A stretch of DNA of 64,000 nt, from NCBI GenBank assembly GCA_037043015.1, contig CM073330.1, positions 9,380,512 to 9,444,511 of the forward strand. The letters run 5' to 3'. This DNA is from Bryum argenteum. Lineage: Eukaryota; Streptophyta; Bryopsida; Bryales; Bryaceae. Shown here piece after piece: positions 621 to 56,619 of the stretch; the stretch's first letter is position 1, and the number at the start of each line of letters is the position of its first letter. The translations under genes and the position numbers were made by a program. The notes under the pieces are model-generated. The model was not told where the DNA came from. It was given only the letters and a program-made list of their open reading frames with translations, and ran no database searches.

Positions 621-1598
621 TTAACCCCTAAACGTCCCCAATGTCGTTTTTCTACACTTTGGATGGAGGGCAGAAACTTTGAAGAGCCATAACGCCTTCA
701 TCCAAACTCCGTTTTGGATGAAATCACTTGGGTTGGGTCCCAAATCAAGTCTAGTGTGTATAGTAGAACTTTTAAAGCCATACAATCAATTATGAATTAA
801 TGGCATGCATTTTAGTGAAGGCATCTTTTGGTTTTGGGTTTCAGATATTGGACATGTTTTATCATTACAAGCCAATTATGTGAAACCAAAAATAGTTTTT
901 GATGATTTTTTTTTCATGAACATGGTCTGCAGATGAAATCTAAAAATTTTCTACTTGGAAGCTTTTTTATCCAAATACTTTTGGTATTACATTTTCAATG
1001 ATGTTTCCACAATGAAAAAAGTGAAAAAATGGATGATTTTTGAACAACTATATCTTTTTCATCCATCGTTAGATTTCAACTTTATTTTTTTGGATGGATT
1101 CCAATTAGAGTCTACTCTCAGTAGTACAAATCTTGACCAAATCGAAGATGTTTCGTAGATAAGGCGTAGATTTGAGTGCATAGGGACTAGTTTTGGACTA
1201 TTTTCCCTTTGTGAATTTTTGGGTAGTTTTCACCATTGCAAGGGTATTTTTTGAGCCAAGTAATTATTTTGATGATTTTGTTTTACAAAGGGGTACTATT
1301 GGGATGAAGATGAACAACTTTCTAGTTGGAGATTTTTTCATTGGAGTAGCTTTGTTGATAGATTTTCCACTTTAAAGTGAAAATGATGAAATTTTGTAGC
1401 TTGTTTTGCTCACTAATATGTTATGATCTTGCAATCTATAAGGCCTCATGACTCAAATATTGGCCCACATGACCTACAACAAGTCTATTACAAGTTTGTA
1501 CGATTGAGATCTAAATATCTTATATTTGTTTTTATCTATGACACTTTTTTTGAAAATATGATTTTTAGCTAAAAATAGGCTGGGACGTTAGGGGTTAA
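621..1598 (+). mobile_element. TTAA element B1 (978 bp), reference copy of family B
   Basis: The element runs from TTAA at 621-624 to TTAA at 1595-1598. Its left end reads CCCCTAAACGTCCC and its right end, reverse complemented, reads CCCCTAACGTCCC, so the terminal inverted repeats match apart from one missing A. Outside the TTAA the flanks do not repeat each other, so no longer target duplication exists. The interior is AT-rich without a transposase. It is homologous to B2 (4.65 kb), B3 (16.2 kb), B4 (53.8 kb) and B5 (55.6 kb). Seen: ends, TTAA, homology. Inferred: piggyBac-like mobilisation. Confidence 0.8.
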
Positions 1599-2998
1599 AG
1601 ATCGATAATTGTACCAAAGTCCTTGGCATGCACGACTAGAATTAAGATTGGCAATATTGTTAAAATGACACGTTCCAACTTGTTGAGTTGTTGTTTGAAA
1701 ATCATGTGATATTATAGAGTTTAAAGATGAAATTATGAAAAATGAGTGATCATATTGTATAATTGAATGTGATAGTATAGAAAAAGTGTGATATCATAGA
1801 GTATTGGGGGTTTTGGAAAATGTTTTATTTTAAGACATTACTCAAGTGAAGGAACATCCTTGATTTTGATTTTCTCTCGCAAGATTTTTTGCAAATCATG
1901 CAACCTTACCATTTTTATAAGTGGCGTTCAAAACACATTCCTTAGATTTGAAGTCAAATCGTTGCTGGAGTAAGTACCAAGAGGCTGTTTGAAAAACATT
2001 CCTTATATAGAAAAATGGGTTCTATATAAAGTTGCAAGATATTCTTCCAAATTTAACCCCCCTCTCTGAGTATCTAGTAATACTCATGTGAAGATTTTAT
2101 ACTCTTAATTGTAAGCCACATTTTTATTTTATTTTTCCTCTACCTATATAATTATATTATGTACTCCTTAGAAAAAAATTGTCGTTTTAGCTAAGTTATT
2201 TATTGTATTCCGTATTTTTAGAAATTAATTGTGTTTACGATTTAATGCATACATACTTTGGAAGGAGTTTCATTCTGAATTTGGATTTGTCAATGAATTC
2301 TTTTAACTTTGTTAGATATGATCTAAGTGACTTTGTATACCAAGAGTATTCTTATATTTTTTTCAAATGAGACACAAAAATTCACCTTCAGTTGATCTTT
2401 GTAGATAAAAGAATACGATCTTTTTTTGGCAATCTAGATTTCGTTCTTGCAAACTTTCCAATCGACTTCTACACTTTCTAGTCGACTTCCACAACAAAAA
2501 TGTGCATCTAAACAACGTAGTTGTTCCCTTGTATTTCTTGATACTATGATCTATTGCTACATTTTTAGTTGTGCAAAACAAAGCCTATTAGTAAGATACA
2601 TATTACTAACATAGTGCACATTGTAAGACAATTTTACATAAAACCTAAATAAATAGGGCACAAATACCAATCATTCATACAAACTAAACAATACATATAG
2701 GGGTGAAAATTGCACAAAATTGGCTTCACAATTCCAAACCCAAAGTGACACCCCTAAAGAGGTTTTGTCTCTGATTACACCAGGTTTTGTCTCTGATTAC
2801 ACCTTCTGCAGACATATTTTATCCAAGCCACTCACAATCGCCACAAATAGCACTTCCAATAAAATCCAAAATATTACCCTCAACAACTACAACCTTAACT
2901 CTCACCTAATCTGTCAAAAAACTTACAAACATTGAAGTGCTATATATACAACCAAAACAAAAGGAACTCTCAATGAAAATCCACAAGTCTACAGACTC
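1599..2998. other. AT-rich intergenic
   Basis: No gene is recognised. Bases 2760-2803 hold a tandem pair of a 22-bp unit starting AGGTTTTGTCTCTG. The short frames here lack any recognisable domain. Confidence 0.5.
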
Positions 2999-3368
2999 TT
3001 AACCCTTAAACGCCCGTGGGGTCTGAAACGGGCAGCTCAAAATTGGATCACAACACCTTTTGGACTTGGGCATCATGAATAGTGCACTTTTTGAACTTGG
3101 GCATCATGAATAGACCAATCAACGATGAGCTTGCAACCTCCTACAAGGTGATGTACAACCCCAACCTACCTACCACAATCCTTTCAAAGCACAAAATCAC
3201 TCATACAAATTGTGATTTGAATTGTGAAATTTCACTTTTTGAATGCATCAGAAGAAGGTGATCAGTTTGACATCAAAATATAAGTGAAATGTTGAGTACA
3301 GTGAGAGCTACAGGGAAGATTCTATTGGAATCATGCCCCTCGGGCTTGCTTGGGCGTTTAAGGGTTAA
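2999..3368 (+). mobile_element. TTAA element A1 (370 bp), family A
   Basis: TTAA at both edges encloses CCCTTAAACGCCC on the left and GGGCGTTTAAGGG on the right, a perfect 13-bp inverted repeat. The flanks (ACAGACTC and AAACACTT) share nothing, so TTAA is the only duplicated sequence. No coding capacity. Five further copies (A2-A6) are in this window. The right subterminal region holds CAAGCCC-GAG-GGGCATG (minus-strand reading), a nearly perfect short palindrome. Confidence 0.85.
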
Positions 3369-3666
3369 AAACACTTAAACCTAGATTTTCAAAACTTTTA
3401 CCAAAAAGTCACAATCAGAAGCATTACAATCAAAACAAATAGCACTTCTAATGCAAATCCGATAATGAATCCTCGAACACTCGGACCTAAATTCTAAACT
3501 CATCTTCCAAAAAAATTACATACACACATGTTACAATCAACACAAATAGTAATTCATATGAAGATTCCAAAATATCCCCTCTAGCACTTGAACTTAGATA
3601 CTCACCATTTTAACCAAACAAGTTGCAACCAAGCAGCACATAAGAAACTATGCATATTGACAACAC

Positions 3667-4020
3667 TTAACCTCAATTTTGTTGAATTGGCGTTATTCTA
3701 TAGCACGTTTTTGATGGAAAAAAGAACAGACAACATGTGTTTTTGTCAGATTTTGACTTCAAAGGACAATATTTTTGAAGTGCACTTGAGAATTATTGCC
3801 CATGGACCGGCTTTCAAAGGTCAAAAACATCAAGATGTATGATAATAGGAAATTTTTGGTAATATTATTAAAATTAGTTGATACTATGTAGGAATTCTGT
3901 GATATTAGAAAAGCACGCCATTTATAAGCATAAATAATTCTGAACTGCAGTTGAGAAATATTTGTGTAAAATGGCACATTTTAGAACGGGGCCAAAATGG
4001 CACATCAGGGCGTTAGCAAA
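3667..4020 (-). mobile_element. TTAA element F2, right part lost
   Basis: The left edge is TTAA then CCTCAATT, continuing in homology to the reverse complement of the right end of F1 (10.8-11.2 kb). The shared interior includes the repeated motif around TGATATTA and the AAATGGCAC blocks. Homology stops near 4020, just before the separate inverted-repeat unit G, and no right terminus is found. Confidence 0.5.
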
Positions 4021-4050
4021 ATGATCCATCAAAGAACACGGCGTGGACAC

Positions 4051-4596: not shown

Positions 4597-5815
4597 CCTC
4601 AATTCTATTAAAATGCCATTATTATGGTAAAATGGTGAGTTTTGGGTGCTCAACCCCCAAATGTCGAAAAATGACATTGTGGATGAAGGGCAATAACTTT
4701 GAAGAGTCATAACTAACTTCTTCATTTGGACTCTAATTTGGATGAATTTACTTGAATTGGGTGCCAAATCAAGTCTAGTTTGTGTGAAAAATATTGCAGA
4801 CTTGTAGAAAAAAGTATGAATTAATGGCATGCATTCTAGTGAAGGCAGCTCTTGTTTTTGAGTTTTCAAACATGGGGCATATTTTACCATCGTAAAGCAA
4901 TCATGGGAAATTTAAAAAGATGTTTCTATGAATTCTTTTTTATGAATCATGATCTGAAGATGAAGGCTAACAACTTTCCAGAGTGAAGAGTTTTGATCCA
5001 AATAACTTTGGTACTAGATTTGAGATGATATTTCTACAATGAAAAAAATGATCAAATGGATGATTTTGAGAAGCTATATCTCCTTCATCCACCATTGGAT
5101 TTTGACTTTGTTTTTTGGAAGGGGTTTGGATTTGAGTGCAGTTCATGTATAGAAACCTTAACAAATTCAAATGTGTATTCAAGTCTAAAGATAAGGCATA
5201 GATTTGAGTGCAAAGGGTTGAGTTTTGGACTATTTTTCCTTCATAAATTTTTTGGCAGTTTTCACTATAGCAAGGCCATCATTTGCACAAAGAAATTTTT
5301 TCTCATGGATTTTTAATTGAGATGAAGGTGATATCTTTGTAGTTGGTGGCTTTTTTGTTGCAAAAAGTCTATTGGTATCATTTTCACTTAGGACTGATAA
5401 TGATGATATTTTGCGATGTTTTTTGATTATTGATACGTTATGATCTTGCAATGTATAAGGGCTCATGATCTCAACATTTAACCCACGTGATGTACAATAT
5501 GTCTACTACAAGATTGTACCGTTGAGATTTGTATAACTTCATCTGTGTTTTTATTTATGACAATGTTTTTGAATAGCCATTCAAAAATATTTGCCTTTAG
5601 ACAAAAACTATTGAACGGTCGTTCAAAAGTATAAATATTTGTGAAGAGCCCAGTAATATTGCCCTTTGACCCGTTCAAAGGTTAAGAACCACAAGTAAGT
5701 GTGATATTATGGAATTTTTTGTGATATTATAAAAATTGATTGATATTATGGAGAAAATGTGTAATATCAAAAAACGTGCCAGTTTACAAGGATAACATTT
5801 CTCATTTTGGGCAGG
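4597..5815 (-). mobile_element. Degenerate F element (F3) split by B2
   Basis: The left end CCTCAATT at 4597 and the following ~50 bp match the F1 right terminus read backwards. Homology resumes after B2 at about 5605 with GAACGGTCGTTC, a TTTGACC/GGTTAAG block, TGATATTATGG repeats and a GTGCCAGTTTACA block, all in F1 order but reversed. The far terminus is missing. B2 sits inside this element, so F3 is older than B2. Confidence 0.5.
4650..5604 (+). mobile_element. TTAA element B2, degenerate, nested in F3
   Basis: The left end is TCAA followed by CCCCCAAATGTCG, a mutated version of the B1 left end. The body follows B1 over most of its length, including GGATGAAGGGCAATAACTTT and a shared stretch around 5040-5110. 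The right terminus has decayed near GCCTTTAG at about 5604. Boundaries on the right are approximate. Confidence 0.6.
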
Positions 5816-7195: not shown

Positions 7196-7745
7196 TTAAC
7201 CCCTAAAAGCCCGAGGGGTTTGAAGAAAAACTTAGATGTCTTATAAAATATGAATTCGGTAACCCTTGTAAAGTAGCGATCCAAAGATAGTATGAAGACC
7301 TTAAACCCTAAATTAGATCTATCCGGTCAAATTTCCTAAAATAAGTAAGATTTGTTTCATAATTAATTGAAGAGAGAAAAACTTTGAAAATCAATATAAA
7401 ATGTAATTTCTATTATTAGTAATTGAAAATTGCTATGATTGGCTAAAATCAAATATTATATGATAAAATGGAGAGAGGCCACAAGTAACCTATGAGGAAC
7501 CTTATTAGTTTCCCAAAATAGTAATTTTTCTTACACTAAGAAAATTTTGCCATGTTTGTGTTTGAAGGCTTATTGTGAACAATCTATGAATCCAAACAGG
7601 GTTCCGTAAATTGGATGTGGTTCCTAACTTACCAAACTTCTGGAATGGTAAAAAAAATTCCAAAAAAAATCTTTTTTTAGCCAAGTACAGCTCCTCAAAA
7701 TTTGGGATCGACCATAAAATGGTTGATTGGGCTCTTAGGGATTAA
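7196..7745 (+). mobile_element. TTAA element E1 (550 bp), family E
   Basis: TTAA at 7196-7199 is followed by CCCCTAAAAGCCC. The right end reads GGGCTCTTAGGGA and then TTAA at 7742-7745. The inverted ends match with two mismatches plus the last base. E2 at 31.6 kb has the same length and is alignable throughout. A short palindrome (AGCCCGAGGGGTTT) lies just inside the left end, in the same position as in family A. There is no coding capacity. Confidence 0.75.
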
Positions 7746-12044: not shown

Positions 12045-12414
12045 TTAACCCTTAAACGCCCAAGGTGACCCGAGGGGTGACCTTCCAACAGAATCTTCCC
12101 TGTAGCTCTCACTGTACTCAACTTTTCACTTATATTTTGATGTCAAACTGGTCACCTTCTTGTGATGCATTCAAAAAGTGAAATTTAACAATTTAAATCA
12201 CAATTTGTATGAGTGATTTTGTGCTTTGAAAGGATTATGGTAGCGAGGTTGGGGTTGTACATAACCTTGTAGGAGGTTGCAAGCTCATCATTGATTGGTC
12301 CATTCATGATGCCCAAGTTCAAAAAGTGCACTATTCATGATGCCCAAGTCCAAAAGATGCTGTGATCCAATTCTGGGCTGCCCGTTTTGGACCCCATGGG
12401 CGTTTAAGGGTTAA
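12045..12414 (-). mobile_element. TTAA element A2 (370 bp), family A
   Basis: TTAA-CCCTTAAACGCCC at the left and GGGCGTTTAAGGG-TTAA at the right. It is the reverse orientation of A1 and exactly the same length. The flanks (GTGGTCC and GGAGCAG) are unrelated. The subterminal palindrome reads GGTGACCC-GAG-GGGTGACC, with one arm partly broken. Confidence 0.85.
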
Positions 12415-14062: not shown

Positions 14063-14352
14063 CTATTCTCCATGTCGGTAGCAGAGACAAATTAAAGCTC
14101 ATGCAGAGAATAAGGCATTTCACACGAAGGTGACTCTTACGGGTAACTCTCAGATTGAGCCCCACCTGCTTGACGAAGCATACTTTTCAGTTGAAACACC
14201 TTGAGGCTTGAGAAACACGTATTGGGAGTAATTATTCAAATTATTATTTCAGCGAAGTACCCAATTGGTGTGAACATTTAGCTGGACTCGAGCTAAACCG
14301 TATTTCCCAAAATCATTGAATATTCCCATTATAGCTAAATACGTGTTAACCC

Positions 14353-14722
14353 TTAACCCTTAAACGCCCATGGGGTCTAAAATGGGCAGCCCAAAATTGG
14401 ATCACAACATCTTTTGGACTTGGGCATCATGAATAGTGCACTTTTTGAACTTGGGCATCATAAATGAACCAATCAGTGATGAGCTTGCAACCTCCTACAA
14501 GGTGATGTACAACCCCAACCTACCTACCACAATCCTTTCAAAGCACAAAATCACTCATACAAATTGTGATTTGAATTGTGAAATTTCACTTTTTGAATGC
14601 ATCAGAAGAAGGTGATCAGTTTGACATCAAAATATAAGTGCAAAGTTGAGTACAGTGAGAGCTACGGAGGAGATTCCGTTGGAATCAAGCCCCTCGGGCT
14701 TGCTTGGGCGTTTAAGGGTTAA
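14353..14722 (+). mobile_element. TTAA element A3 (370 bp)
   Basis: TTAA-CCCTTAAACGCCC to GGGCGTTTAAGGG-TTAA, same orientation as A1. The right subterminal palindrome is perfect: CAAGCCC-GAG-GGGCTTG (read on the minus strand). Its right TTAA (14719-14722) is also the left TTAA of A4. Confidence 0.85.
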
Positions 14723-15081
14723 ACACCCAAGGTGACCCGAGGGGTCACCTTCCAAGAGAATCGTCTCTGTAGCTCTCACTGTACTCAACTTTTCACTTAT
14801 ATTTTGATGTCAAACTGGTCACCTTCTTGTGATGCATTCAAAAAGTGAAATTTTACAATTCAAATCATAATTTGTATGAGTGATTTTGTGCTTTGAAAGG
14901 ATTGTGGTAGGTAGGTTGGGGTTGTACATAACCTTGTAGGAGGTTGCAAGCTCATCATTGATTGGTGCATTCATGATGCCCAAGTTCAAAAAGTGCACTA
15001 TTCATGATGCCCAAGTCCAAAAGATGCTGTGATCCAATTTTGGGCTGCCCGTTTCACACCCCATGGGCGTTTAAGGGTTAA
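14719..15081 (-). mobile_element. TTAA element A4 (363 bp), inverted next to A3
   Basis: It shares the TTAA with A3 and lies in opposite orientation. The left terminus has lost seven bases (TTAA-ACACCC), but the right terminus is intact (GGGCGTTTAAGGG-TTAA). The left subterminal palindrome is perfect with ten-base arms: AAGGTGACCC-GAG- GGGTCACCTT. A3 and A4 together form a ~730-bp inverted repeat. Confidence 0.85.
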
Positions 15082-15776: not shown

Positions 15777-15824
15777 GGATTTCCTTTTATTGTTAGTAAA
15801 ATTTGATTAGATTTAATTAGCATT

Positions 15825-16060
15825 TAACTCCTAAATTTCCTTGTATTTTTGTGGGCTTGGAACCTCAAACTTGCAATTTCCAACCTCTGTGGACTCCCAT
15901 GGGTAAGTAATAATTTTTTTTACTATTTTCTAACTTCCAACCATAAAATCTTGTACTTAACCCTATTTTAGGTATTGTTCCAAAAATTGACCGTTGGATG
16001 TTTATCATTTATGACTTGTGAGATCATATAGTTTCCGAATGTGGAACATTGAAACATGGG
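15825..16060 (+). mobile_element. TTAA element fragment D1
   Basis: TTAA then CTCCTAAATTTCCTTG. The following ~200 bp align to D2 (32.67 kb), including a GACCGTTGG...GATCATATAG block also related to family C interiors. No right terminus is recognisable. Confidence 0.4.
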
Positions 16061-16154: not shown

Positions 16155-16618
16155 TATATGTTAGATTGCAAGAACACAACGTACTACTACTCAAAAAACA
16201 TCACAAAATCTCATCATTTTCGCATTGAAGTGAAAATGCTGCCATCAAAAGACTCATTGCCATAAAAAAATTACCAACTACAAAGACGTTTACCTTCATC
16301 TCAATAACACCTATCAACAAAATAATATCCTTGAGAAAAATTTCTTTGCGCAATTATGGCCTAGCAACGGTGAAACTTGCTAAAGATTTTACAAAGGAAA
16401 AATAGTCTAAAACTAACCCCTTTGCACTCAAATCTATGCCTTATCTTCAATAAATCTTTGATTTTGTCAAGATTTTTACCACTAAAACTAGACTCTAATT
16501 AAAGTTTATCCCAAAGAATAAAGTCAAAATCCAATGGTAGATGGAGGAGATAAGTTATGGCTCTTCAAAGTTGATGCAGTCATATAAAACGACTATTTTT
16601 GACATTCGGCCCGGTTAA
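16155..16618 (-). mobile_element. TTAA element fragment B3
   Basis: The sequence follows family B in reverse (TCATCATTTTCGC, ACCAACTACAAAG, GGAGATAAGTTATGGC-TCTTC). It ends in a decayed terminus at TTAA 16615-16618. The far end is truncated near 16155 and internal parts are deleted relative to B1. Confidence 0.5.
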
Positions 16619-16812
16619 TTGTTAAACATTGTTGCAAAGTTGAGCAAATTCTTCATGAATATGGAATCAACCTAACAAGGTTGAATATTGCATAACTTAA
16701 TATTTATACTCCATTGAATAACCACAAATATTGCTTTTAAGGCATACTATTTCAAATTGTTGTAATCTTCTTAGACATAATATATATGAGAAAGCTTGTA
16801 CTTGAAAGTGAA

Positions 16813-17080
16813 TTAACCCCTATAGATCCTTGATTCAAAATTGTTTAATTTACAAAAAACGACCTTTGCTTACTTGAGGCCAAGAAAAGCCCAATCTAAG
16901 TATTAATTAGACAATCCAACTGTAGGATCTTAAACTGAACTTGCCTTATTACTTGCATGTATAATTTGAACCGTTGACTCTTTTTCATTTGTGAGACTAT
17001 AATGGTCAAAGTTGGGTGATTTCAGTTCCTGCAAGAACCCCGAAAAGCCATTTTGGCTTCCTAGAATGTTTAGGGAATAA
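16813..17080 (+). mobile_element. TTAA element C3, decayed right end
   Basis: TTAA-CCCCTATAGATCCTTG starts the element. The interior shares TCCAACTGTAGGATCTTAAA and a TTTGTGAGACTATAATGGTC block with C1 and C2. The right end reads TTTAGGGAATAA in place of TTTAGGGGTTAA. Confidence 0.6.
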
Positions 17081-25106: not shown

Positions 25107-25476
25107 TTAACCCTTAAACGCCCAAGCAAGCCCGAGGGGCTTGATTCCAAGAGAATCTTCTCTGTAGCTCTCACTGTAATCGACTTTTCACTTATATTTT
25201 GATGTCAAACTGGTCACCGTCTTGTGATGCATTCAAAAAGTGAAATTTCACAATTCAAATCACAATTTGTATGTATGATTTTATGATTTGAAAGGATTGT
25301 GGTAGGTAGGTTGGGGTTGTACATAACCTTGTAGGAGGTTGCAAGCTCATCATTGATTGGTTCATTCATGGTGCCCAAGTTCAAAAAGTGCACTATTCAT
25401 GATGCCCAAGTCCAAAAGATGTTGTGATCCAATTTCGGGCTGCCCGTTTTAGACCCCATGGGCGTTTAAGGGTTAA
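25107..25476 (-). mobile_element. TTAA element A5 (370 bp)
   Basis: TTAA-CCCTTAAACGCCC to GGGCGTTTAAGGG-TTAA with unrelated flanks (ATGGTCCA and GTGACGTA). The left subterminal palindrome is perfect: CAAGCCC-GAG-GGGCTTG. The other end carries the palindrome CCCATGGG directly inside the terminal repeat. Confidence 0.87.
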
Positions 25477-25922: not shown

Positions 25923-26100
25923 ATTACGACTTGAACCAACACTTCAAATATGATATGTGAGTGAAATCTCAAGGTAACCTCAAGATCCTACAGTTGAAGC
26001 TTTTAAAAAATGTTCAGATTAAGTTTTTGTAAGCATAAAGCAGAGGAAGGTCATTTTTGATAATTTAGGCAATTTTGCATCAAAGATCTATTGGAAATAA
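25857..26100 (-). mobile_element. TTAA element fragment C4
   Basis: GAAAATGGCTTTTTCGGGGT matches the reverse complement of the C3 right part. TACAGTTGAAGCTTTTAAA and AAGATCTATTGGAAATAA match the C3 left part with a decayed terminus. An A30 homopolymer lies inside it. Confidence 0.5.
25891..25920 (+). repeat. Poly(A) tract, 30 bases
   Basis: An uninterrupted run of 30 A inside C4, at a position where the related copy C2 has only a short A run. Slippage expansion is the simplest reading. Confidence 0.95.
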
Positions 26101-27840: not shown

Positions 27841-28110
27841 TTAACCCCCTAACTTTCTTTAAAGCCGGAAACGGGTTTTGGAGGTTCCCGCAAGAGAAAA
27901 AACTCAGCCAACTTTGACCATTATAATCTCACAAATGAGGAAGAATGAACGGTTCAAATTTGGTATGTGAGAAGAATGTCAAGTGAAATTTGAGATCTTA
28001 CAGTTGAATCTTTTAAATATTTCTTAGACTGAGATTTTATGAGCGTAATTTAAAGGAAGGTCAAATTTTGTGACTTAGACCGTTTTGCAAGAAGGAGATT
28101 TAGGGGTTAA
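27841..28110 (-). mobile_element. TTAA element C2 (270 bp)
   Basis: TTAA at 27841-27844 and TTAA at 28107-28110. The ends are CCCCCTAACTTTC and GAGATTTAGGGG. The interior (CCATTATAATCTCACAAATG, GATCTTACAGTTGAATC) matches C1 in reverse. The flanks do not repeat beyond TTAA. Confidence 0.7.
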
Positions 28111-29975: not shown

Positions 29976-30748
29976 GGGCATCCTCAATGGACACGGAATA
30001 CACTCCCTCTAAACCAAATTCTATCTTTTGACTGATCTAAAATTCGAAATTAGTATTATCATCATTAGAAGCGCATGTAAATAAACATGAGATATTTCTT
30101 AAGAAAAAAAATTGTGAAATTGGGACGTAGGTGAAATCCCTCATTAAAAACATCACATTTTCAAAATTTATGAGGGAGTGCACCAATTCTTGCTTAACCC
30201 TTAAAGGTTCTTGATGCGAAATTGTTTAAATCATGAAAATAGACATTCCCCTACTTCAGGCCTTAAAACTCTCAATCTAAGCATTACTTGGAAGATCCAA
30301 CTGTAGGATCTTAAAGTTAACTTAGCCTTCCACACACTGGCCAGAATTGAACCGTTCATTTGTGAGATTATAATGATCAAAGTTGGCTGAATTTTCTCCC
30401 TGCGGAAATTCCAAAAGGCGATTTCCGCTTTCTTGGACCTTTAGGGGTTAGAAATGGGAAGATCCTCACACGCTCTTTCTAAATTTTAGAAATATAGAGG
30501 GAATAGGGGGGGGGGGTCACCTACTTTTTAAGCAAGATTTGGTGCACTCTCTCTAAATTTTGAAAATGTGGTATTTTCAATGAGGGATTTCACCTATGCC
30601 CCAATTTCACAAAAAAAAATCTTGAGAAATATCTCACGTTTATTTACATGCGCTTCTATTGATAATAATTTTAATTTCTAATTTTAAAGCAATCAAAAGA
30701 TAGAATTTGGTTTAGGGGGAGCTTATTCAATGTCCATTGAGGATGCTC
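29976..30748. mobile_element. TAA-type element K with very long inverted arms, carrying C1
   Basis: TAA flanks both sides (29973-29975 and 30749-30751). The ends are GGGCATCCTCAATGG and, reverse complemented, GAGCATCCTCAATGG. The arms are about 200 bp or more each and pair through AAATTCTATCTTTTGA and AATAAACATGAGATATTTCT-type blocks, so K is mostly foldback. A 258-bp C1 element sits at the apex of the left arm. A 3-bp TWA target duplication with a G-rich end is typical of PIF/Harbinger-type MITEs. No protein is present. Confidence 0.7.
30194..30451 (+). mobile_element. TTAA element C1 (258 bp), nested in K
   Basis: TTAA-CCCTTAAAGGTTC to GGACCTTTAGGGG-TTAG. It interrupts the left arm of K at TCTTGC-TTAA. 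The matching place in the right arm of K (30526-30529) still reads CTTGC-TTAA-AAAG when reverse complemented. That is an empty site, and it shows TTAA was duplicated on insertion (the right copy is now TTAG). Confidence 0.85.
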
Positions 30749-31588: not shown

Positions 31589-32138
31589 TTAACCTCTAAA
31601 GGCCCAATGGGCTTGGAGAAAAACTTAAATGTGTTATAATTTATGCATTTTGTAATTTTTATGAAGATTCCTTCGAAAGACAACATGAACATCAAATTGC
31701 TCAAATGATACCAATATAATTAAATTTCTTTAAAATTAGTAACTTTTAATTTAATGATGAATTAAAGAGAGTAAATCTTCAAAGATCAATAGAAAATACA
31801 CTTTCTATTACTAGTAGTTGAAAATTGATATGATTAGCTATAATACATATTATCTGATAATATAGAGAAAGTCCACACATAACCTAAGAGGAACACTATT
31901 AGTTTTCCCAAAATTGTAAGTTTTCCTACTCTAAGAAAACCTTACCCTATTTGTGTTTGAAGGCTTATTCTGAACTATGTATAAATCCAAACGAGGTTTT
32001 GTAAACTGCATGTGATTCTAAACTTTCCAAACTCCCGAAAAATAAAAAATATAGATTAAAAATTTATTTTTAGTGTGCTAGAGCTCCTCAAAATTCGGGA
32101 CCGACCATAAAATGATTGATTGGGCTCTTAGGAGTTAA
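31589..32138 (+). mobile_element. TTAA element E2 (550 bp)
   Basis: TTAA-CCTCTAAAGGCCC to GGGCTCTTAGGAG-TTAA, the same length as E1 and alignable throughout (AAACTTAAATGTGTTATAA, GTTGAAAATTGATATGATTA, GACCGACCATAAAATGATTG). The left subterminal palindrome is GCCCAATGGGC. Confidence 0.75.
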
Positions 32139-32672: not shown

Positions 32673-32890
32673 TTCACCCCTAAATTTTCTTGTGTGTTTT
32701 TGGAGCTTGAAACCTCATAACTCCAATTCTCTACCTTTGTGCACTCTGGGGAGTGTAATACAAATTGTCTTACGTTTTTTAAGCTCCCAACCGTAAGATC
32801 TCATAGTTAAGTCTATTTATAGTCAATTGGCCGTTGTGTGTTTATGATTTGCAAGATTATAACATCCAAACTTTGTGCGAAAGTGTTTAC
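32673..32890 (+). mobile_element. TTAA element fragment D2
   Basis: TTCA then CCCCTAAATTTTCTTG. The interior matches D1 (GAGCTTGAAACCTCATAACT, TTAAGCTCCCAACCGTAAG, GGCCGTTG). The right end is not found. Confidence 0.4.
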
Positions 32891-33649: not shown

Positions 33650-34084
33650 CGTTATACATGGGTGACATCCATATGATATTGAGGTAATTTTCAAGAATTT
33701 TAACCGCTAAAGAGCCTGAACCTTGAAACTCCAGTGGGCCATTTTGCAAAACCACTCAACTCATTTTCTATTGGATGTGATAGGAATAATATTCAAGACA
33801 AAAGAGGTAAGTTGTAGATTTAGGGTTCTCCTTTGGTGGAAAGGAAAGGAAATGAATGGACCAACATGGTTGAAAAGTCAAATCCATCCTGTAGGTGGTG
33901 ATGATCATTATTTATGGTTGACTTTTTCACGCCACAATTATAATTAATGGACACACAACCCTATCTGAATGTCTGTGAGTGTGGAAGTGCGTGCACAGCC
34001 CTAAAGTATCCTCGTGAACAAGATTAGGTCAAACGATCCCTCCCTTGTAGAAACTTGAGCAATTGTTAAATGCAAAGTTAAATG
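33650..34084. other. Intergenic
   Basis: No gene. TTTTAACCGCTAAAGAGCC at about 33697 resembles a family E left end but has no partner end. Confidence 0.35.
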
Positions 34085-36717
34085 TTTACCCAGTTTCAGA
34101 GTGTATTGGTTTCATGCTTTAACTTGTTCCATGCTGCTAGAGGGAGCGTCGGCATCCGTGTGTGTCAACGGAGCATGCTCCACCCCATTCCCCATACGAA
34201 GAGGAGTCCGTCAAGGCTGCCCTCTGGCACCATACCTGTATCTTCTTGTAGCAGTGGCGCTGTCACTTACCGCGCGCCATCAGGTAACCATCGGTTCCCT
34301 TCGAGGCATCCGCCTACCGGATTCGAACACCCAACAGATCGTGACCCAGTACGCAGACGATGCCACCTTGGCGGTGTTTGGATCCCACCGATATCTCATC
34401 GCTGCCTTTGATCTGCTGCAAACCTTCGAAGCTGCTTCAGGGCTCCGGATCAACAGGGCAAAGAGTGCCGTTTTTTGGTTCGGTAGGGAAGTCACACCGA
34501 GCTGGCTCCATGACTTCGGCTGCTTGGTGGCCCCTCCACAGGCCCTGTACAAGCTACTCGGCACCCCATTTGGGCTGGAACTCGCGACCGCTGATATCGA
34601 CGAGTTTCTGAAAGCTAAAGTCTTGAAGAAGCTGAACTACTGGTCCAAGATACACCTGTCTTTAGCGGCGAGGGCAGTCATAGTTAACTCCGTCCTTCTG
34701 TCAACCTTATGGTACTTTCTAAGCATATGGGGAGGATCACGGCCGGTACTACAACGCATCCGAGCCTCTCTCAGGAACTACATATGGAAAGGGAATGAAG
34801 AGCAAGTACGCGCACGAGTCAGTTGGCAAGACTGCTGTGCCTCCCAAGGCAATGGCGGTCTCGGGATCGTTGACCCGGAGGAGGCCCTCACAGCCCTCAT
34901 GGGGAAATGGGTGGTGAAAGCTCTCACTCCAGGTACCTCAGCGCTGCAGACGCTCCTTCGCCATCGACTCAGCCTCCTGAGACCCCCAGGCAACCCGGGC
35001 TGGCCCCCTAGCCTTCAATGGTCAATGCTTTCTCGCTTTTCGGCCCCCACGGGAAATGCCCTGTGGAAACGCATCACTCAGGCTTGGCGGTCCCTCACTC
35101 CCTTGCTCGATGCAATCCCTCCAAAGAACTTCGACGAAGTGTGCAACACAAATTTATGGTGGACTACTCACTTCTTAGGCAACTCCTTTGGCTTCACGGA
35201 GTCAAGAGCCAAACAACTGGCAACAGTCGGCTTACGATCCCTTCGAGACCTCTGGCTTCCTGGAGGTATGGTCCCGATACCTTGGCTTGAGCTTCAGACC
35301 AAATTCAGTCTCCACCAGGACGAGCGCCTCTGTGTAGAGCGATACTACTCCAACATTCCTGGAGCATGGGTCCGCCTCCAACATTCAACCGCGCTCTCTC
35401 CACAGGTTGATGACTGGCTCGGCGTCTTTGATGGCAATCTCATGGACCGGCCTTCTCTGGTGCTCCAAACCTCAGCCCAGTTTCTTTCGACACTCTCCTC
35501 GACGCCCACGGACCTGGAAGTCCCTGCCCACATAAAGACTTACACCGTCGGTGACCTATCCAGCTCACTCATCGAACTGCCTGTCCCAACGTCACAACCG
35601 CGCCGGGCTCATGGCACAATCTGCAGAGTGAGGGTCATCTCGCTCCCTCCCCGCCAGTCATCCAAGGCGTCCATCACACGTAAGTACCTAGCTCCTGTGT
35701 CATGCCTCTCATTTGACCCCGCCAGATGGTCATGGCAGCCGGGAGATAACATCTTCGAGTACTCTGCGAGCAAAGGCCGCATATGGAGGAATCCTCACAT
35801 CTCCTTGAGTAGGTCAATTCATGAGAAATGGCACAATCAACTTCGACCAGAGTTCACTCCCAACTGGACAGAGGTTTGGATGGCAGACCGCCCAAGAAAA
35901 GAAGCTGCCTTCCTTTGGAGTCTCATTCACAGAGCGATAGCAGTCAACCATTGGCGACATCAATCACACACGGCAACTTCAGCTCTCTGCACCTGTTGCG
36001 ACCGTGGAGTCCCAGAGTCTCTGCAACACTGCTTCTTTCAATGCACGGCGGCAACAGAAGCATGGGACTATGCGTTTGCCATTCTATACCAGGCAGTCCC
36101 GCGCCACCTCAACTCCATCTCGTGGAACCGTCTTCGTTGGGAGCAATGCCTACTTGGTGAGCCCCTGCCGATTCAACTTCAACCACTATCAGAACTCTGG
36201 GCGCTTCTGAGAGGGGTGGTGATTTGGTCCATCTGGATACGACGCAATGCATGTGTTTTTGCAGGAGACAGATGGACAAAAGAACGCCTCCAGCTCACCA
36301 TCTGGATAGTACACTTGACTTAGGCCGAATGGCATGGGAACGAGCTTCTCGCCGGGTGCGCCACGCACAAACCCCTCGTCCCCAACTCATGGCAAGATTT
36401 CATCGAATCTGGCTAAGTTCTGAAGTATTCTGCTCTCTGATTAACGATAGAGTTCGTTGGTCGGCGGTTGCCCCGAGGTGCAGCAGGGCCCTTGTCAATT
36501 AATGCTAGTTCCAGAGGTAGCAGTTCCCTCATTGGTCTCACCATTAGGGAATTAGGTCCTAACAAGGTTTTCAGTTCTTATTAGGTAACAATCTTCAAAA
36601 ATAGGTATCCGCCGGCCCGAAGCATACTCGAGCCTGGTTCTGCATCGGTGTATCTCTCTTCATGCAATGGAAATCCACCACTTGTTCCAAAAAAGAAAAA
36701 AAAAAAAAAGAAAAGTA
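34085..36717 (+). mobile_element. 5'-truncated LINE (non-LTR retrotransposon)
   Basis: The element enters in the middle of the reverse transcriptase domain. It runs through the C-terminal half of ORF2 and a ~390-bp 3' region and ends in an A-rich tail (about 36686-36716). Loss of the 5' end with a kept A-tail is the usual product of aborted target-primed reverse transcription. No target duplication could be confirmed. Confidence 0.85.
34101..36323 (+). pseudogene. LINE ORF2, C-terminal half (reverse transcriptase and zinc-binding region)
   Basis: A 740-codon frame is open without interruption but has no ATG at its left edge. Visible in order are the RT motif RGVRQGCPLAPYL (about residues 35-47), the catalytic QYADDATLAVF (about 83-93), ASGLRINRAKSAVFWFG (about 112-128), LLGTPFG (about 153-159) and a thumb-like region. 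Near the end is a Cys/His cluster (CTCCDRGVPESLQHCFFQC) typical of the RVT zinc-binding domain of plant LINEs. The endonuclease and first RT motifs are absent. The usual final segment appears in another frame after about 36310 (LGRMAWERASRRV), so there is one frameshift near the C-terminus. GC-rich codon use contrasts with the AT-rich surroundings, and the intact 2.2-kb frame suggests recent insertion. Confidence 0.85.
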
Positions 36718-41000: not shown

Positions 41001-44000
41001 ACACTCTCCTTGTTCCGTTGCTGAGATCAACCACTTCTGGCTTGCTGCTTCTGACCTCCTTCGTTGCCCATTGCCCAATACTAGCAGCTTCCTTACCATC
41101 CTTACTGACCTCCCTCGTCTGCTGTGTAGTTGTCCTGTTTCGACCTGACAATTCCGAGTTCAAGGCTTCACCTGCAAGCTGCTGCTGCTGACCTTCAGGA
41201 GTTGATACTTTAAAATCAGCTCTAGCAATCAAAGTCTTCGTCTCTGTGTTCCCAGGAGTGCTCGTATTCGCAGGTGTCACTACTGGAGGTCTTACAGACC
41301 CATTCTGATTATAAGGAACGTTCCCAGCCGGTGACACTACTGGAGGTCTTAGCGACCCATTCTGAGATGGTGTACCGATGAAAGGAACGTTGTTCGTAGC
41401 TTGTACTCGCGCTCTTGGAGCAGGAGATCCACCAAACATGGCCATAATATCATCTGTTACTGATTTGGTCTCAATAGTAACATCGTCCTGGGGCACCCTC
41501 CTACTGCCACTTAGATCTGCCCCCATCGTATTCGAGTACGAGTTTCCAGTCTCAGGAGGAATTCGAGGGGCACTGAACATCGCCATAATATCATCCGATA
41601 CGGATTTGGTATTACTGGTGACATCTTCTCGCTTGGTCTCGTTTCTAAACGGTTTATATACGGCTGGTGGAAGGCTAGAGTGTTCCCGAGCTGGTCTTGA
41701 TTCTGGTTGCAATGTTGAGTCACCGAACATAGCCATTATATCATCCGTAACTGATTTGGTAACGAGACTGACATCATCGAGAAGCTCGTTCTGACCAGCT
41801 CCACTCTGATCGACTGTTGCCACATTTGGAACTGTCACTGGCACGCTCTCGAAATCATTTCTGGCGCTCACGGGCTGAGGAGCTGTTGTAGGAAGGAATC
41901 CACTCGAAGTGGAGCTTATAGGCTGTGCTGTTGTAGGAAGGAATCCATTCGAAGTGGAGCTTGTGAGCTGTGCTGTTGTAGGAAGGAATCCATTCGAAGT
42001 GGAGCTTGTGAGCTGTGCTGTTGTAGGGAGGAATCCATTCGAAGTGGAGCTTGTGAGCTGTGCTGTTGTAGGGAGGAATCCATTCGAAGTGGAGCTTATG
42101 GGCTGTGCTGTCGTAGGCAGAAAGCCGTTCGAAGTGGTGCTTATGGGCTGTGCTGTCGTAGAAAAGTATCCGTTCGAGGTGCCTTCTACCTGCTTGTACT
42201 GCGTGGACTCCATTGGCCTATTAGCAGTTTGATAAACCTCATTTGCTCTTGTATAATTGGAGTTAAGTATAACCTGCTCGCTGCTGAAATGAACTCCAGG
42301 TAGCTGTGGAGGCTTCTTCTGTATCCAATGATGCAGTCTTTCTTCCTCAAAACTAGACTCTGCCTTGAGCCCAAACTCCGGTTGAAGCCCCGAATTTTCG
42401 TATATCTTAGATCCAATAAGGACAGGTGCTGCACAAGACAAAAGATAGAAAACTAACTATTATAACTACCCCCACTTCGATTTATTTACCATTCATTTGA
42501 CTGGAAGTCTAAAAAAGACATGCACCAAAATCAGTAATCTATCGAGGTCTATAGATATGCTTGTTCAATTGAGTTGGTGACTCACCAGGACCAGCATAAG
42601 TGCCGACACTGTCTTGCATGTCTGGAAGAATATCTTCCCTCGCGTTGCTTTGAAAGGAGGGCAATATTGGCAAGCCTGAGCATGTTCCAGCAACAGTCAT
42701 TAGAAGGAAGTCAAATCACACGTCATAAAATATGGTGGGACTATAGTCCATCAGCAAGTATTACCTTCGATGCCAAAATTATCACCTAACGGCCTCATCG
42801 CTCCACCACTCAATCTAGCCAATAAGGCTTTTTGCTCTTGCTCCTGTGCAAGAGATTCACATACTTTTCCGTCACAAGAAGAAACACGAATGCAGAACGT
42901 AAAAGTATCTAAATACAGATGCTAGGAAAGGTAAGAGCCGCTTGGGTGTGAAGAGAGACCTGTCGAACTTTACGCCTTTGGCGAGCAACCATTCGACTCC
43001 GAAAGTTATTGTACATGGCTAATACCCTCTCCAGTGGTTGTGCTCCCCTGGAGTCAACGCCCAAACACAAGTCAAAACACTTGGCAACTGGGGCAGATTG
43101 AGAAACGAATGCATAAAAGTGAAAAACGATTCTTACCTAGATATGCCAATTTGAAAGACATAGTCGGCCTTAGAATAGTCTCTAGAAGACTCCAATAGCA
43201 TTGCATAAGCCTCATAAAACAGTCCATGCTCCAAACCAATCCCATTCGCTTCCAAAAAGGGGAAAATGCCCCCCCTCTCCAAGCAACAATCTGCCTGCTT
43301 GCAAGCACAAACGCAGTTACCGACCAGCTCATATCTTCTACCACTTTAAAGCAGGCCCCAGTCCGATTACTGCGCAGTTTATGACATCCAGTAACCTATT
43401 ACGATTCTGATCGAGATTCTTTCGTAGTATGATAAATGGAAATGAAAAATTCGGTATTGCCATCACAGAAGGATTTAGAGGCCTTACATATTGTATCCAG
43501 ACTTTCAAATAGCGAAGGTCCGACTTATATCGTTTGTCCGGCACAAAAGTGCTGGCGGCAAGCTCTAGTACTTCCTGCAGGACGACCTTCACACTACCTG
43601 GCGGATTCATCTCCTTCAACCACTTTATACATCTGCAAAAGTAAGAAACGCTCTACCTTAGCAACTCTTCCGTTGAGTGCACATGGGTTATACACTCAAA
43701 TGTCTTAAAGAATCAGAAGCCAATTTCCGGCCTCTATCGTTTCTAGAGGCAGTTTATTAGTCCAGAATTGCATTACGTTTGTACCAGCACATGCAATGTT
43801 CGTCTCTCGCTTGAATACTATGCTTTTAAAACCTCCACGGTGAATCCTTACTCCTGATACTACCTTGCGTTCAGCTTTCAAGCACAGAAATCTGAAATGG
43901 CGAAAAAACATGTTCGTGTTCCAGATTTAAACATTCTCATTGTTGAAAATTACGTACCGTAGATAAGGCTCAAGGGGATCATTCCCCGTGTAGTTTTGGA

Positions 44001-51047: not shown

Positions 51048-52499
51048 TCAAGCTCTGATGCCAAACCGAGGCTCCAGTGTAAACGACATAGGGTTCAAAG
51101 TACAGACTCGAAGCTCTCCATCTTCAGGAATGGCCGGTGCAGGCAGAAGTTCAGACCTCTCGCGATCTGCAACGTCGAAAATCTCCCCAGTACGATCGAC
51201 AGTGTTGAATATGCATAATCGCGATTTGCTGTATGGAAGTAAAGCATATTCTGGGAACACATCCAAGCTCCAGCCACCAATCTTTGGTGTTCTGAAAACA
51301 TTCACCAGCTTGAAAGGAATGTCTCCGTCCAGTGGAGTCCACTCTACTCTGTCAACGCAATGGTCATCGATCTCGCCGAAATCCTCAATTCGCTCTGTGA
51401 ACAGATACAGTTGGCCGTCGTTTTCTACCAGTTGGAGAATGGAAGAATGAGGCAAACCAAGGTAAGTCGACCATGTGCGTTCCACCATGTTGAACCCCAG
51501 AATGCCCTTCACGACTTCGTTGTTGTGTTTCATGAAGCCGATGCAGAGAATGTTGTCGCTTTGGAAAACACCAGCTTGAAACTCACTCAATGCATAAGCT
51601 GGTCCTGGCAAATCACCCACTCTTGCCCATTGCCCCGTTCTAGAATCATAAAGCTCCGTGATCTTGGACAGATGCTCCTGCTGATCCATTCTCGGGACAT
51701 AAGTGTCAGTGAACGTGGACGCATGTTGCTCCTGATCGTCCCAGCTTGAACCTGCTACAAGTATCTGGTACGATTGTGTGGCTTTATCCACTATCATGTG
51801 CATGAGAACAGGGTTACGTCGATGCAGCAACGGTGGAAGCTCCTTCCAGCTTCGAGCCAAAGGATTGAAGACGATCAACCGCTCGCGGAGTGATGACTTC
51901 GAGAAGTTCATACACACCAGTCCGTTGTTGGCGCAAATGAGAAACTCTTTGAACAAGTCCGGATCCGGGGCACAATTGGTAGGAAGAAACGAGAGAGGAG
52001 GTAACCTTCGCCATTTACCGACAGAAGTTCCGTCACCGCTCACGCTCCAGGCGGGGTCGAACCCTGCCAATTGCAAAACGCCGTCTCTGATGAATAAGTA
52101 GCACGCTGTGAAGGAAGGTTGCTTCTTCGATGATATGATTGAAAGAAACTCCACGCTTTCGATCAATAGCTTCCAGCCTTTAGAGAGCAGTATCATTTGA
52201 AACACCTGCTCGTAGTCCACGTACTCCAAAATAGCTCCCTTGATTTCTCGTAGAAGAGTGTCGTCACTTTGCTCCAAGGTTGCAGGTACTAGAAAGCCAT
52301 AGAGGAAGCATGAGGCTTTCTTAGCGTAGATTACTATGAGCCACAAGTACTGTACGAGACTAAACACAAGCGACAGAGCTTTCCACAGAATACGTCTTCC
52401 GGCGCGGCAAGCTTCCAGCAGAAATGGTATTCCTGCCCGGCGTTTGCCCTGTCTCCCCACCCAGTGCTTTGTTCCACCATCGAATGCGGAAGAAGCCAT
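51048..52499 (-). CDS. F-box/kelch-like protein A (483 aa)
   Basis: Likely a substrate adaptor of an SCF ubiquitin ligase, single exon from ATG (52499). The N-terminus has a hydrophobic stretch (ALSLVFSLVQYLWLIVIYA, about residues 42-60), unusual for an F-box protein. A degenerate F-box follows (LREIKGAILEYVDYEQVFQM...SKGWKLL, about residues 82-112). From about residue 130 come kelch/galactose-oxidase-like strands: LQLAGFDP, RLIVFNPLARSWKELPPL, ITELYDSRTGQWARVGDLPG and a C-terminal EWTPLDGDIPFKLVNVFRTP. From about residue 200 on it is almost identical to protein B (57.4 kb), while the N-terminal parts differ strongly. The leading LP of the F-box consensus is missing here, so SKP1 binding may be weak. 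Confidence 0.75.
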   Translation of the reverse strand: MASSAFDGGTKHWVGRQGKRRAGIPFLLEACRAGRRILWKALSLVFSLVQYLWLIVIYAKKASCFLYGFLVPATLEQSDDTLLREIKGAILEYVDYEQVFQMILLSKGWKLLIESVEFLSIISSKKQPSFTACYLFIRDGVLQLAGFDPAWSVSGDGTSVGKWRRLPPLSFLPTNCAPDPDLFKEFLICANNGLVCMNFSKSSLRERLIVFNPLARSWKELPPLLHRRNPVLMHMIVDKATQSYQILVAGSSWDDQEQHASTFTDTYVPRMDQQEHLSKITELYDSRTGQWARVGDLPGPAYALSEFQAGVFQSDNILCIGFMKHNNEVVKGILGFNMVERTWSTYLGLPHSSILQLVENDGQLYLFTERIEDFGEIDDHCVDRVEWTPLDGDIPFKLVNVFRTPKIGGWSLDVFPEYALLPYSKSRLCIFNTVDRTGEIFDVADRERSELLPAPAIPEDGELRVCTLNPMSFTLEPRFGIRA

Positions 52500-52849
52500 A
52501 AGTGCCGACGAAAAAATGAAACGACCACGGTGCTATTTTTGATCGATCAGTAAGAGTGTCAGATCTGCCGGACTAGCTCAGCATGTGTGAAGGAATTGAC
52601 TGGTGCAGAAGTGAGGCTCAATATGCTCGTTCAAGATCGATTGTCTGCACCCGATTGTTGCGGAATTGTCTGTACGTGAACATACCTTTACAGTACAATA
52701 GTGACACCTATGAAATTTCCGTACTTTTCGTCGGAGAGGAGAAAAACGGACGCCATTTTCCTCTAAAATTGGCGCTAATGACAAGTCTTTGACTGATGGT
52801 TTGGAGTAGTGTTGATTGATAAGAGAGCATCCTTCTACTGGTCCTGTAA
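52500..52849. promoter_or_regulatory. Upstream region of F-box gene A
   Basis: About 350 bp between the start of gene A and MITE N. No clear TATA box. Confidence 0.3.
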
Positions 52850-53799: not shown

Positions 53800-54831
53800 T
53801 TAGCCTTAGACGCCAACGGGGGGTCTAGAGCCTAAAAACATAATTTTTTGCAAAGTGTCATAAATGAAACTAAAAGCAAGCCTATCTAAATCTCAACCGT
53901 ACAATCTTGTAGTATACTGTATAGGTCATGTGCGTCAAATTTGAAGTCATGAGGCCTCATAGATTCCTAGATCGAAACATATTAGTACTCAAAAAAGATC
54001 ATAGAATTTCAATATTCTCATTTTACTTTGAAGTAAAAATGCTATCAACAAACGTACATATTGCAATAAAAAAATTTACCAACTACAAATTTGTCAAGCC
54101 TCATCTTAACAACACTTTTGTACAAAAGGATTTAATAAAAATTTATTGGCTCAAATAATAGCCTTGCAAGGGTGAAAATTGCCTAAATATCTACAAAGGA
54201 AAAAGGGTCCAAAATCTACACCCCTTGCACTCAAATTCTTGCCTCATCTTCAAAACACCTTTGATTGGGTCAAGGTTTTTTCATTGTCGAAACATCGTTT
54301 AAACATTTTTCATTGTGGAAACATTGTTTTAACATTTAAATTGTACTCCATGTGAAACCTAACCCAAAAAACAAAGTTAAAATTCAATGGCGGATGAAGG
54401 AGATATAGCTGCTCAAAAATCATCTACTTTCCTCTTTTTTCATTGTCGAAACATCATCAAAAATCCAATACCAAAATTATTTGGATAAAAAAAACTTCCA
54501 ACTACAAAGTTGTTAGTATTCATCATAAAATCATGCTTATGTAAAATAAATTCATGAATTTTTTTTCGATTTTCCATAATTACCTCACATGGTAAAACAT
54601 ACCCCATGTTTGAAAACTCTAAAACAAGAACTGTCTTCACTAAAATGCATGCCATTAATTCATACTCTATTTTATGGATTTGATTCTACCATACAAACTA
54701 GACTTGATTTGGGACCCAACTCAAGTAATTTCATCCAAAAAGGACTTTGAATAAAGAAGTTATGGCTTTTTAAAGTTTCTTCCTTTCATCTAAAATGTTG
54801 TTTTTCGACATCATGGGCGTTTAAAGGTTAG
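53800..54831 (-). mobile_element. TTAA element B4 (about 1,032 bp), decayed ends
   Basis: TTAG-CCTTAGACGCC at the left and GGGCGTTTAAAGG-TTAG at the right; the interior follows B1 in reverse (CATGAGGCCTCATAG, ACCAACTACAAATTTG, GGAGATATAGCTGCTC). Both edges read TTAG instead of TTAA. On each side an element of the TWA type abuts at the same TTA (P on the left, GAGCATCACCAATGG on the right). Confidence 0.65.
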
Positions 54832-54860
54832 AGCATCACCAATGGTGCCCACAAACTGGT
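54831..54860 (+). mobile_element. Left end of a further TWA-type element
   Basis: TTA then GAGCATCACCAATGGTGCCC, matching the end consensus of K and N. No right end is found, so this is a fragment or an element with a decayed partner. Confidence 0.35.
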
Positions 54861-55005
54861 CTCTCCAAACCAAAGATGGTGTGAGCTTTCCCCTCAGCCT
54901 CGATCAAGGTGCCACGAGTAGTTTTTGCAACTACTCCTCAATGTTGCATGTGCAGGGTAAGAGAGCCAGGCTGCAAGCAACGGCTTTTCAAACCTCAATT
55001 CCATT

Positions 55006-55224
55006 ACACTAAATTTGATAATTAGTGTTAGATTATTATAAGATTTAAAAATGCTATAAGTTTTTACTTTTGTTTAAAATAATTTACCAAGAGCATTGAT
55101 TCTGATACTATATAAGGACCCCCATCTTGGCCAATATAGTGGGTAAAATTATTGAACAACAGTAAAAACTTATAACATGTTTATGTAAATTAGTGTATCT
55201 AACACTAATTATCAAATTTAGTTG
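55006..55224. mobile_element. Foldback element H (about 219 bp)
   Basis: CACTAAATTTGATAATTAGT on the left pairs with ACTAATTATCAAATTTAGTT on the right. Pairing continues, with gaps, through CTATAAGTTTTTACT and AGTAAAAACTTATAAC, so the arms are about 75 bp. No coding sequence and no firm target duplication. Confidence 0.65.
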
Positions 55225-55639
55225 TAGCGAGAGAGTTATCCAAGAAAGATGATCCCCTCTTTTTCTTAAATTTTAATTCCCCTTAAAAGGGCATTTGAAT
55301 GTCTCTGTAAACCTCCCGGGAAACACTGCATGAGGAGCCGGTTGGTGAGCGACAAGTACTACGAGGACCATTTTTGTGAGTTTGTGAATGTGGCCCAATG
55401 AATGTTGCCAGTAATTCTACCACGGTGGCACAAAATCAAGCCATTGAATCATTCCCCCTTACCACTAGGAGCATGTCTTGGACTCCTCCACATCCTAAAG
55501 TACTATATTTTTTTATTTTTTTTTGCAGTTGTCAGTGAAAGGAGTGATGGAGTATGCAAATCACTTGACTATTTTTTTCAGAAACATTAGGAACATATGG
55601 TACTTTACACTTCTTATAAAATATAGTTTCATAGATGAA
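55225..55639. other. Intergenic
   Basis: Nothing recognised. Confidence 0.4.
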
Positions 55640-56619
55640 ATAGAGATAACCTATTAAGATCTCAACCGTACAAACTTGTGATAAACTTGTTGTATGTCAT
55701 GTGGATCAAAATTTGAGTCATGAAACCTCATAGATCGGGAGGTTATAACACATACGTACTAAAAATAAACTACGGAATTTCATCATTTTCACTTTAGAGT
55801 GGAATTCTACCAACAACCCAATTGCAATAAAAATGTCACCAACTACAAACCTTCATCTCAATAGCACCTTTACCCAAAAAAGAAAATCATCAAAAATAAT
55901 TCTTGGTTCAAATAATAGCCTTGCAATGATGAAAATTGCCAAAAAAAAAAAAAAATCAAAGGAAAAATTGTCCAAAATTAGACCCTTTGGCACTCGATTT
56001 AATGCCTTATCTTCAAAAATATTTTTGATCTTGTCAAAGTTTCTACTTCTAAGACTAGACTCTAACTGGAAGTCATCCCAAAAGATAAATTTGAAATCGG
56101 ATGGTGGATGAAGGAGATATAGCTTCTTAAACATCATCATTCCATGTTTTTCACTTCTTTCATTGACAATACATCATTGCAAATTCAATAGCAAAAGTTT
56201 ATGGATCCAAGAACTTCCAACTTGAAAGTTGTTAAGAATTACCTAACAATCATGATGATGAAAAAGAAAAAAAAGGAAAAAAAAAGAGAAAAAAATCAAG
56301 AACTATTTCTGATATCACATAATTGGCTTGCAATGTTAAAACATACCCTCTGCTTGAAAACCCAAAAACAAGAGCTATCATCACTAAAATGCATGCCACT
56401 ATTTCATACTTTATTTCATGAATTTGAAAATTTTACCGCACAGACTAGACCTAACCCCAACAATTTGATATAGAACCTAACCCCAACGATTTGATATAGA
56501 ACCTAACCCCAACGATTTTCATCCAAAACAAACCTCGAACAAAGAAGTTATGACTCTTCAAAGTTGTTGTCTTCCATCGAAAATGTCGTTATTCTACATT
56601 CAGAACATTCAGGGGTTAA
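55640..56619 (-). mobile_element. TTAA element B5, left end decayed
   Basis: The right end reads TTCAGGGG-TTAA (56616-56619). The body follows B1 in reverse (CTCAACCGTACAAACTTGTG, TCATGAAACCTCATAGATC, GGAGATATAGCTTCTTAAAC). The left terminus is not identifiable. A minus-strand frame of 95 codons remains open in this copy. Confidence 0.6.

Follow-up and report, generated by a model that had tools for sequence, protein, structure and literature searches.

The window analysed here, a stretch of 64 kb from a genome of 258.8 Mb in 25 contigs, contains about 20 short repeated elements and fragments with a common end motif, and the question they raise is which kind of transposase has moved them. The initial annotation of the window suggested a piggyBac-like non-autonomous group. 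The TTAA target, the CCC ends and the presence of the transposase domain PF13843 (DDE_Tnp_1_7) in larger elements with these ends all agree with this, and it is very probable that the window elements are non-autonomous transposons of a moss that belong to the piggyBac superfamily, resembling miniature inverted-repeat transposable elements (MITEs).

The end motif TTAACCCYTAAA, with at most one mismatch, is found 24 times in the window where 0.96 are expected, a number reached by none of 100 shuffles. Genome-wide, the exact motif is present 23,184 times (11,520 + 11,664) compared to 401 (207 + 194) for a reversed-pattern control, and the variant with a first base other than T, VTAACCCYTAAA, 594 + 672 times against 223 + 186 for its own control. 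The outermost T is accordingly present at 23,184 of 24,450 [T/V]TAACCCYTAAA sites, which excludes a target of TA only since that would leave T near its background frequency. The best preserved family of the window, family A, is represented by 847 pairs of CCCTTAAACGCCC...GGGCGTTTAAGGG at element distance with none in the control, and 763 of these 847 have TTAA at both sides; the A-type and end-motif counts are exact matches, and decayed copies fall outside them. One of the insertions can be followed in the window itself, where the complete 370-bp copy A3 (14353–14722, minus strand) is located within the terminus of A4 (14346–15081, plus strand, consisting of 14346–14352 and 14719–15081) in the arrangement TTAACCC[TTAA / A3 / TTAA]ACACCC. 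Without A3 and one TTAA, A4 is exactly 370 bp, so the unoccupied site TTAACCC[TTAA]ACACCC is directly visible and provides, within the window, an empty-site control for the duplication of TTAA (4 bp), as made by the piggyBac superfamily. The expectation that genome-wide flanks would show neither a longer duplication nor TA alone has thus survived.

MITEs with TA targets (mariner/Stowaway-like) or TWA targets (PIF/Harbinger Tourist-like) are the common MITEs of plants, and because TA, TTA and TAA are all contained in TTAA, their sites might read TTAA by chance. A Tc1/mariner Stowaway element should duplicate TA, whereas here the TA is preceded by T at nearly all sites, the full TTAA is found on both sides of most A-type elements and PF13843 is encoded by elements with these ends, which makes such an origin very improbable; for family A, TA- and TWA-target MITEs are rejected by the flank counts. 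It could also be asked whether the motif is telomere-like sequence strewn as interstitial repeats and not a transposon end, as the plant telomere unit is CCCTAAA, CCCCTAAA holds one such unit and some CTAACCCCTAAA pairs are only 35–79 bp apart. The motif, however, abuts TTAA, bounds transposase genes and forms inverted pairs at fixed distances, with the 847 A-type pairs set against none in the control. Interstitial telomere repeats are rejected on this paired inverted arrangement, and their probability is negligible.

A profile search of the genome scored PF13843 at 116 places, all above the curated cut-off and with a best E of 7.4e-82, and gave matches in none of 14 control genomes; none of the 116 places is within the window. 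The domain is without internal stop in 93 of them, a fraction that is biased upward because the 116 are the best of 775 candidates. In an alignment of the 30 best domains the presumed catalytic aspartates in columns 153, 256 and 375 are conserved in 30, 29 and 30 sequences, and align with the IDE, CDN and VD motifs of the piggyBac structure 6x67, the aspartates of which we take to be the catalytic ones, indicating a DDD triad as in piggyBac transposases. A cysteine-rich C-terminus, CxxC..CxxC..C...C....H, which is predicted to bind zinc like the C-terminal domain of these enzymes, is complete in 19 of the 30 and partly visible in a 20th (L037), the other 10 frames ending early or being partial. 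The transposase of L040 (2206–4866, minus strand) has 414 residues upstream of the domain, for which Pfam gives no match at E up to 1. In L016 and L048 the upstream stretch is rich in arginine-glycine.

Two of the transposase elements, the copies on contigs C4 (4,950 bp) and C1 (5,199 bp), are 97–98% identical where aligned, have unrelated flanks, and their similarity stops at TTAACCCTTAAACGCCC on either side. The C4 transposase frame is broken into two overlapping frames, and the C1 copy has an open frame of 886 residues with PF13843 at E = 1.3e-82, for which the nearest solved structures are piggyBac (6x67, 2e-29) and piggyBat (9c0f, 7.4e-24). Five pairs of transposase loci are near-identical (96.2–98.6%), and silent codon differences outnumber those changing the amino acid in all nine transposase pairs compared. 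Together with the open frames these sequence comparisons indicate that transposase function was maintained during the divergence of the lineages, and that copying took place fairly recently.

Flanks were extended for 14 transposase loci, and both ends were found for eight, giving elements of 4.9–6.4 kb. The bounded elements are the pair L039 and L040 with the end CCCTTAAACGCCC, which is also the end of L030 (5,336 bp), L014 (6,399 bp, CCCCTAAAGATCC), L028 (4,940 bp, CCCCTAAAGATCC and CCCCTAAAAATCC), L027 (5,492 bp, CCCCTAAACTCC and CCCCTAAAAAACC), L019 (5,758 bp, CCCCTAACTGCCC and CCCCTAAGTGCCC) and L016 (5,286 bp, CCCCTCAAGGCCC). L021, with the end CCCCAAAA, is doubtful, its 5' candidate being located 17 bp from the edge of the extended stretch. 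For five of the 14 loci no more than one end was obtained: in L035 the 5' end could not be located in the extended flank, L031 has only a doubtful 3' end, and by comparison with the layout of the C4 element the stretches of L041, L042 and L043 probably end before the 5' terminus is reached. All eight bounded elements have CCC at both ends beside TTAA, in agreement with the CCY/CCC inverted repeats of the superfamily, and the ends adjoining TTAA read CCCTTAAA, CCCCTAAA, CCCCTAA or CCCCTCAA, from which it follows that CCCYTAAA is a common end in this genome but not the sole one. A tree of the 30 best domains contains several deep and well-supported groups, in addition to four long-branch sequences of unsure placement. 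The initial annotation left the choice between one transposase source and a set of related ones, and these well-separated groups, together with the end variants, settle it in favour of a set. A transposase of another superfamily in an autonomous element with these ends was named as a finding that would overturn the assignment; the elements encode PF13843 piggyBac transposases, and in lineage I the likeness to the ends of family A goes past the motif.

The relationship between window families and transposase lineages was studied by aligning 100 bp beside the 12-bp motif of A5, B1, E1, E2 and the family-C copy at 30194 with ends of transposase elements, in 160 comparisons. Against the lineage-I ends of the C4 element, A5 scores z = 13.6 (5') and 8.7 (3'), in the same orientation and with none of 300 shuffles as high in either case, and GTCAAACTGGTC is common to A5 and the lineage-I ends about 100 bp in. 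Other A copies also match lineage-I loci terminally among the BLAST matches listed. As the match runs beyond the end motif at both ends, family A is by its terminal sequence a non-autonomous derivative of transposase lineage I, and we infer that the lineage-I transposase moved it. For family C the likeness is to lineage II: each of the three longer C copies contains a segment that is also present close to the 3' end of L028, a lineage-II element (52 bp, 84.6%, E 8e-10; 74 bp, 77%, E 3e-9; 41 bp, 85%, E 2e-5), suggesting that this family probably belongs to the second lineage and was moved by it.

Several points weigh against the piggyBac assignment or narrow it. Six of the eight bounded elements were sought by a TTAA-plus-CC pattern, which in part predetermines the CCC at their start, and the C4/C1 pair alone has borders that were set independently, from an alignment; the further agreement between the two ends of the six is not by construction, but the best-agreeing pair was chosen. 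Both ends were located in no more than eight of the 14 loci. As a cross-lineage pair that we do not believe, A5 and L014, reaches z = 4.6, values up to about 4.6 are taken as background, and the scores of E1 against L014 (3.3 and 4.3) are within it, while E2 has no such score. The family-C copy at 30194 is weak as well, with z = 3.0 against L014 at one end and at most 1.6 with any element at the other, and of the 24 bp in which it matches the 5' tip of L014 (95.8%), 11 are motif. Families B and E have no convincing match past the 12-bp motif among the twenty ends compared in all, two from each of the eight bounded elements and four single ones. Finally, no excision or transposition was observed.

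Kolobok and Sola3 are other superfamilies with TTAA targets, and the missing piggyBac partner of B and E might mean that one of these mobilises some of the families, with piggyBac moving A and C only. B and E start, however, with the same CCCCTAAA as bounded lineage-II piggyBac elements, and elements with these ends carry PF13843, so this division is improbable, no search aimed at Kolobok or Sola3 having been made.

The piggyBac assignment includes a mechanism for the spread of the short elements. Elements of about 5–6 kb elsewhere in the genome encode a DDD transposase (PF13843), which, by analogy to characterised piggyBac elements, would bind the terminal and subterminal repeats of any element with recognised ends, excise it at the TTAA/CCC junction and let it enter another TTAA, leaving TTAA on either side. 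The genome itself demonstrates the duplicated TTAA, the ends held in common, the elements that code for transposase, and the homology, collinear at the termini, of family A to lineage I.

Repeat comparison of the window gives six copies of family A, five of B, four of C, two of E and two or three D-like fragments, and the added intervals sum to roughly 9 kb. The copy labels and family D of the initial annotation came without coordinates, and their matching to copies is our assignment. Family A has five complete copies of 370 bp with a mutual identity of 92–96%, namely A1 (2999–3368, minus strand relative to the lineage-I transposase element, including TTAA at both ends), A2 (12045–12414, plus strand, from the repeat comparison), A5 (25107–25476, plus strand, from the repeat comparison and end alignment) and the nested A3 and A4. 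The sixth copy, A6 (28481–28747, minus strand), is a fragment with one intact end, the inner side of which runs into a 126-bp tandem array. This array occupies 28702–29631, found as six overlapping 300-nt copies at 126-bp spacing, and starts within the truncated A6, as if it had grown out of this MITE.

Family B consists of one complete element of 978 bp with TTAA on both sides, B1 (621–1598, plus strand), and four diverged ones with 70–73% identity. These are a copy with decayed ends (4656–5573, plus strand, 72.6% to B1), a fragment (16162–16625, minus strand), and two copies on the minus strand at 53832–54830 (71.6% to B1) and 55614–56619 (70.1%, with one end TTAACCCCTGAA). Family C has three copies of 258–270 bp with an identity of about 71%, and a fragment at 25938–26083 (minus strand). 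The copy at 16813–17075 (plus strand) has the left end TTAACCCCTATAGATCC, that at 27841–28110 (minus strand) has TTAA at both ends (TTAACCCCCTAACTT and TTAACCCCTAAAT; the BLAST match starts at 27842 and the TTAA is taken from the sequence), and the 258-bp copy at 30194–30451 (plus strand) has TTAA at the left only, the right end being CTAA/TTAG. The two 550-bp copies of family E, E1 (7196–7745) and E2 (31589–32138), are both complete, on the plus strand and 76% identical (76.3% for E2 to E1). Two or three additional fragments are similar to lineage-II element L028 at its 3' end and are possibly the family D of the initial annotation, two of them on the minus strand at 15823–16014 (67.6% over 204 positions) and 32673–32873 (65.9% over 214 positions, E 1.9e-5). 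The number of about 20 elements and their CCCYTAAA end are thus confirmed; TTAA at the borders holds for the better-preserved copies only, because the ends of the fragments and of most B copies are decayed or truncated. For the copies that had been named as intact, TTAA is present on both sides of A1, A2, A5, B1, E1, E2 and the C copy at 27841–28110, but not of the C copy at 30194–30451.

Outside the window, an apparent three-level nesting is seen in L044:1721–3909, where a 939-bp element with CCCCTAAAAATCC ends (2211–3149) is located in a second element within an A copy; the second element starts at 1934 and its right flank is TATA, not TTAA. The largest contig, C1 (44.1 Mb), is strongly depleted in A-type copies, with 13 of 847 where 144 are expected by length, and also in TTAACCCCTAAAGATCC ends (85 of 1,746, 297 expected), and may represent a sex chromosome or one that otherwise has a different history.

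The window had been assigned to a land plant, a bryophyte, and this agrees with the plastid contig, the psaB and psaA products of which have their best matches (1,671.4 and up to 1,641.8 bits) in chains 7ksq, 6l35 and 8htu, with the next chain, 9lut, at 1,631.6 and 1,610.5 bits. As we take the former to be from Physcomitrium patens, the host is most likely a moss; a gene of the PPR-DYW type is also present in the window. Other CDSs there include an F-box/kelch-like gene that is duplicated in inverted orientation (51048–52532, minus strand, and 57287–59515, plus strand), with 97% identity over 572 bp and 93% over 236 bp and the F-box matched in the second only, an open frame of 590 residues with an in-frame 45-bp repeat (41837–42196) giving a 15-residue protein repeat, and an open frame for a LINE-type reverse transcriptase (34059–36323, plus strand, RVT_1 and zf-RVT).

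piggyBac, best known from insects, is regarded chiefly as a transposon of animals and serves as a standard tool for genome engineering. A further proposal, possible but in our judgement somewhat doubtful, is that more than one piggyBac lineage has kept its mobility in this moss, where intact transposases would act on a large pool of cross-mobilised MITEs, and that the N-terminal part is a lineage-specific domain. On this view a land plant would have its own, native piggyBac system, with a long N-terminal part that is absent from the characterised piggyBac enzymes, and a plant-native system might be obtained from the moss elements. With at least 116 well-scoring transposase loci and more than 23,000 exact end motifs, dispersed throughout the genome, this 259-Mb moss genome offers a case for the study of piggyBac spread, the birth of MITEs and possible host control, and suggests that such elements may go unclassified when plant repeats are annotated.

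Such elements had been thought poorly documented in land plants. No report of piggyBac in a bryophyte or moss was found among the open-access papers listed; plants, or all groups studied including land plants, are named as piggyBac hosts in the portions consulted of PMC8086355, PMC10813416 and Table 2 of PMC4438587. A further paper, PMC10619864, was discarded since it matches only on the word "piggybacking". The piggyBac name is likewise given to land plant sequences in the repeat tables of Ceratopteris (1,230 fragments, 122,417 bp, 0.00%; PMC6890710) and Stipa (1 element, 75 bp; PMC8319324), but these are trace entries in tables that show neither ends nor transposase, whereas ends, target site and transposase are demonstrated for the moss elements. 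In animals, piggyBac-related MITEs are described in excerpts on coral MITEs (PMC2872659) and on mPok of the Pokey element in Daphnia (PMC4912750), which like those of the window are short non-coding elements tied to a piggyBac-type transposon; the moss differs from what is given there in the host, in the 847 A-type copies with exact termini and in having several other families. The moss elements share the TTAA duplication, the CCC-initiated ends, the DDD transposase and the cysteine-rich C-terminal domain with piggyBac of Trichoplusia ni (IFP2; PDB 6x67/6x68) and piggyBat of Myotis lucifugus (PDB 9c0f). They differ from both in the moss host, in the length of the bounded elements (4.9–6.4 kb, compared to 2,472 bp in the source consulted for T. 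ni piggyBac), in a transposase that read from ATG has 886 residues with 414 before PF13843, and in the coexistence of several lineages with at least 116 scored loci. As far as the consulted parts of these sources go, the superfamily is known and plants have been named as hosts, and what looks new is a demonstrated multi-lineage, high-copy case in a moss.

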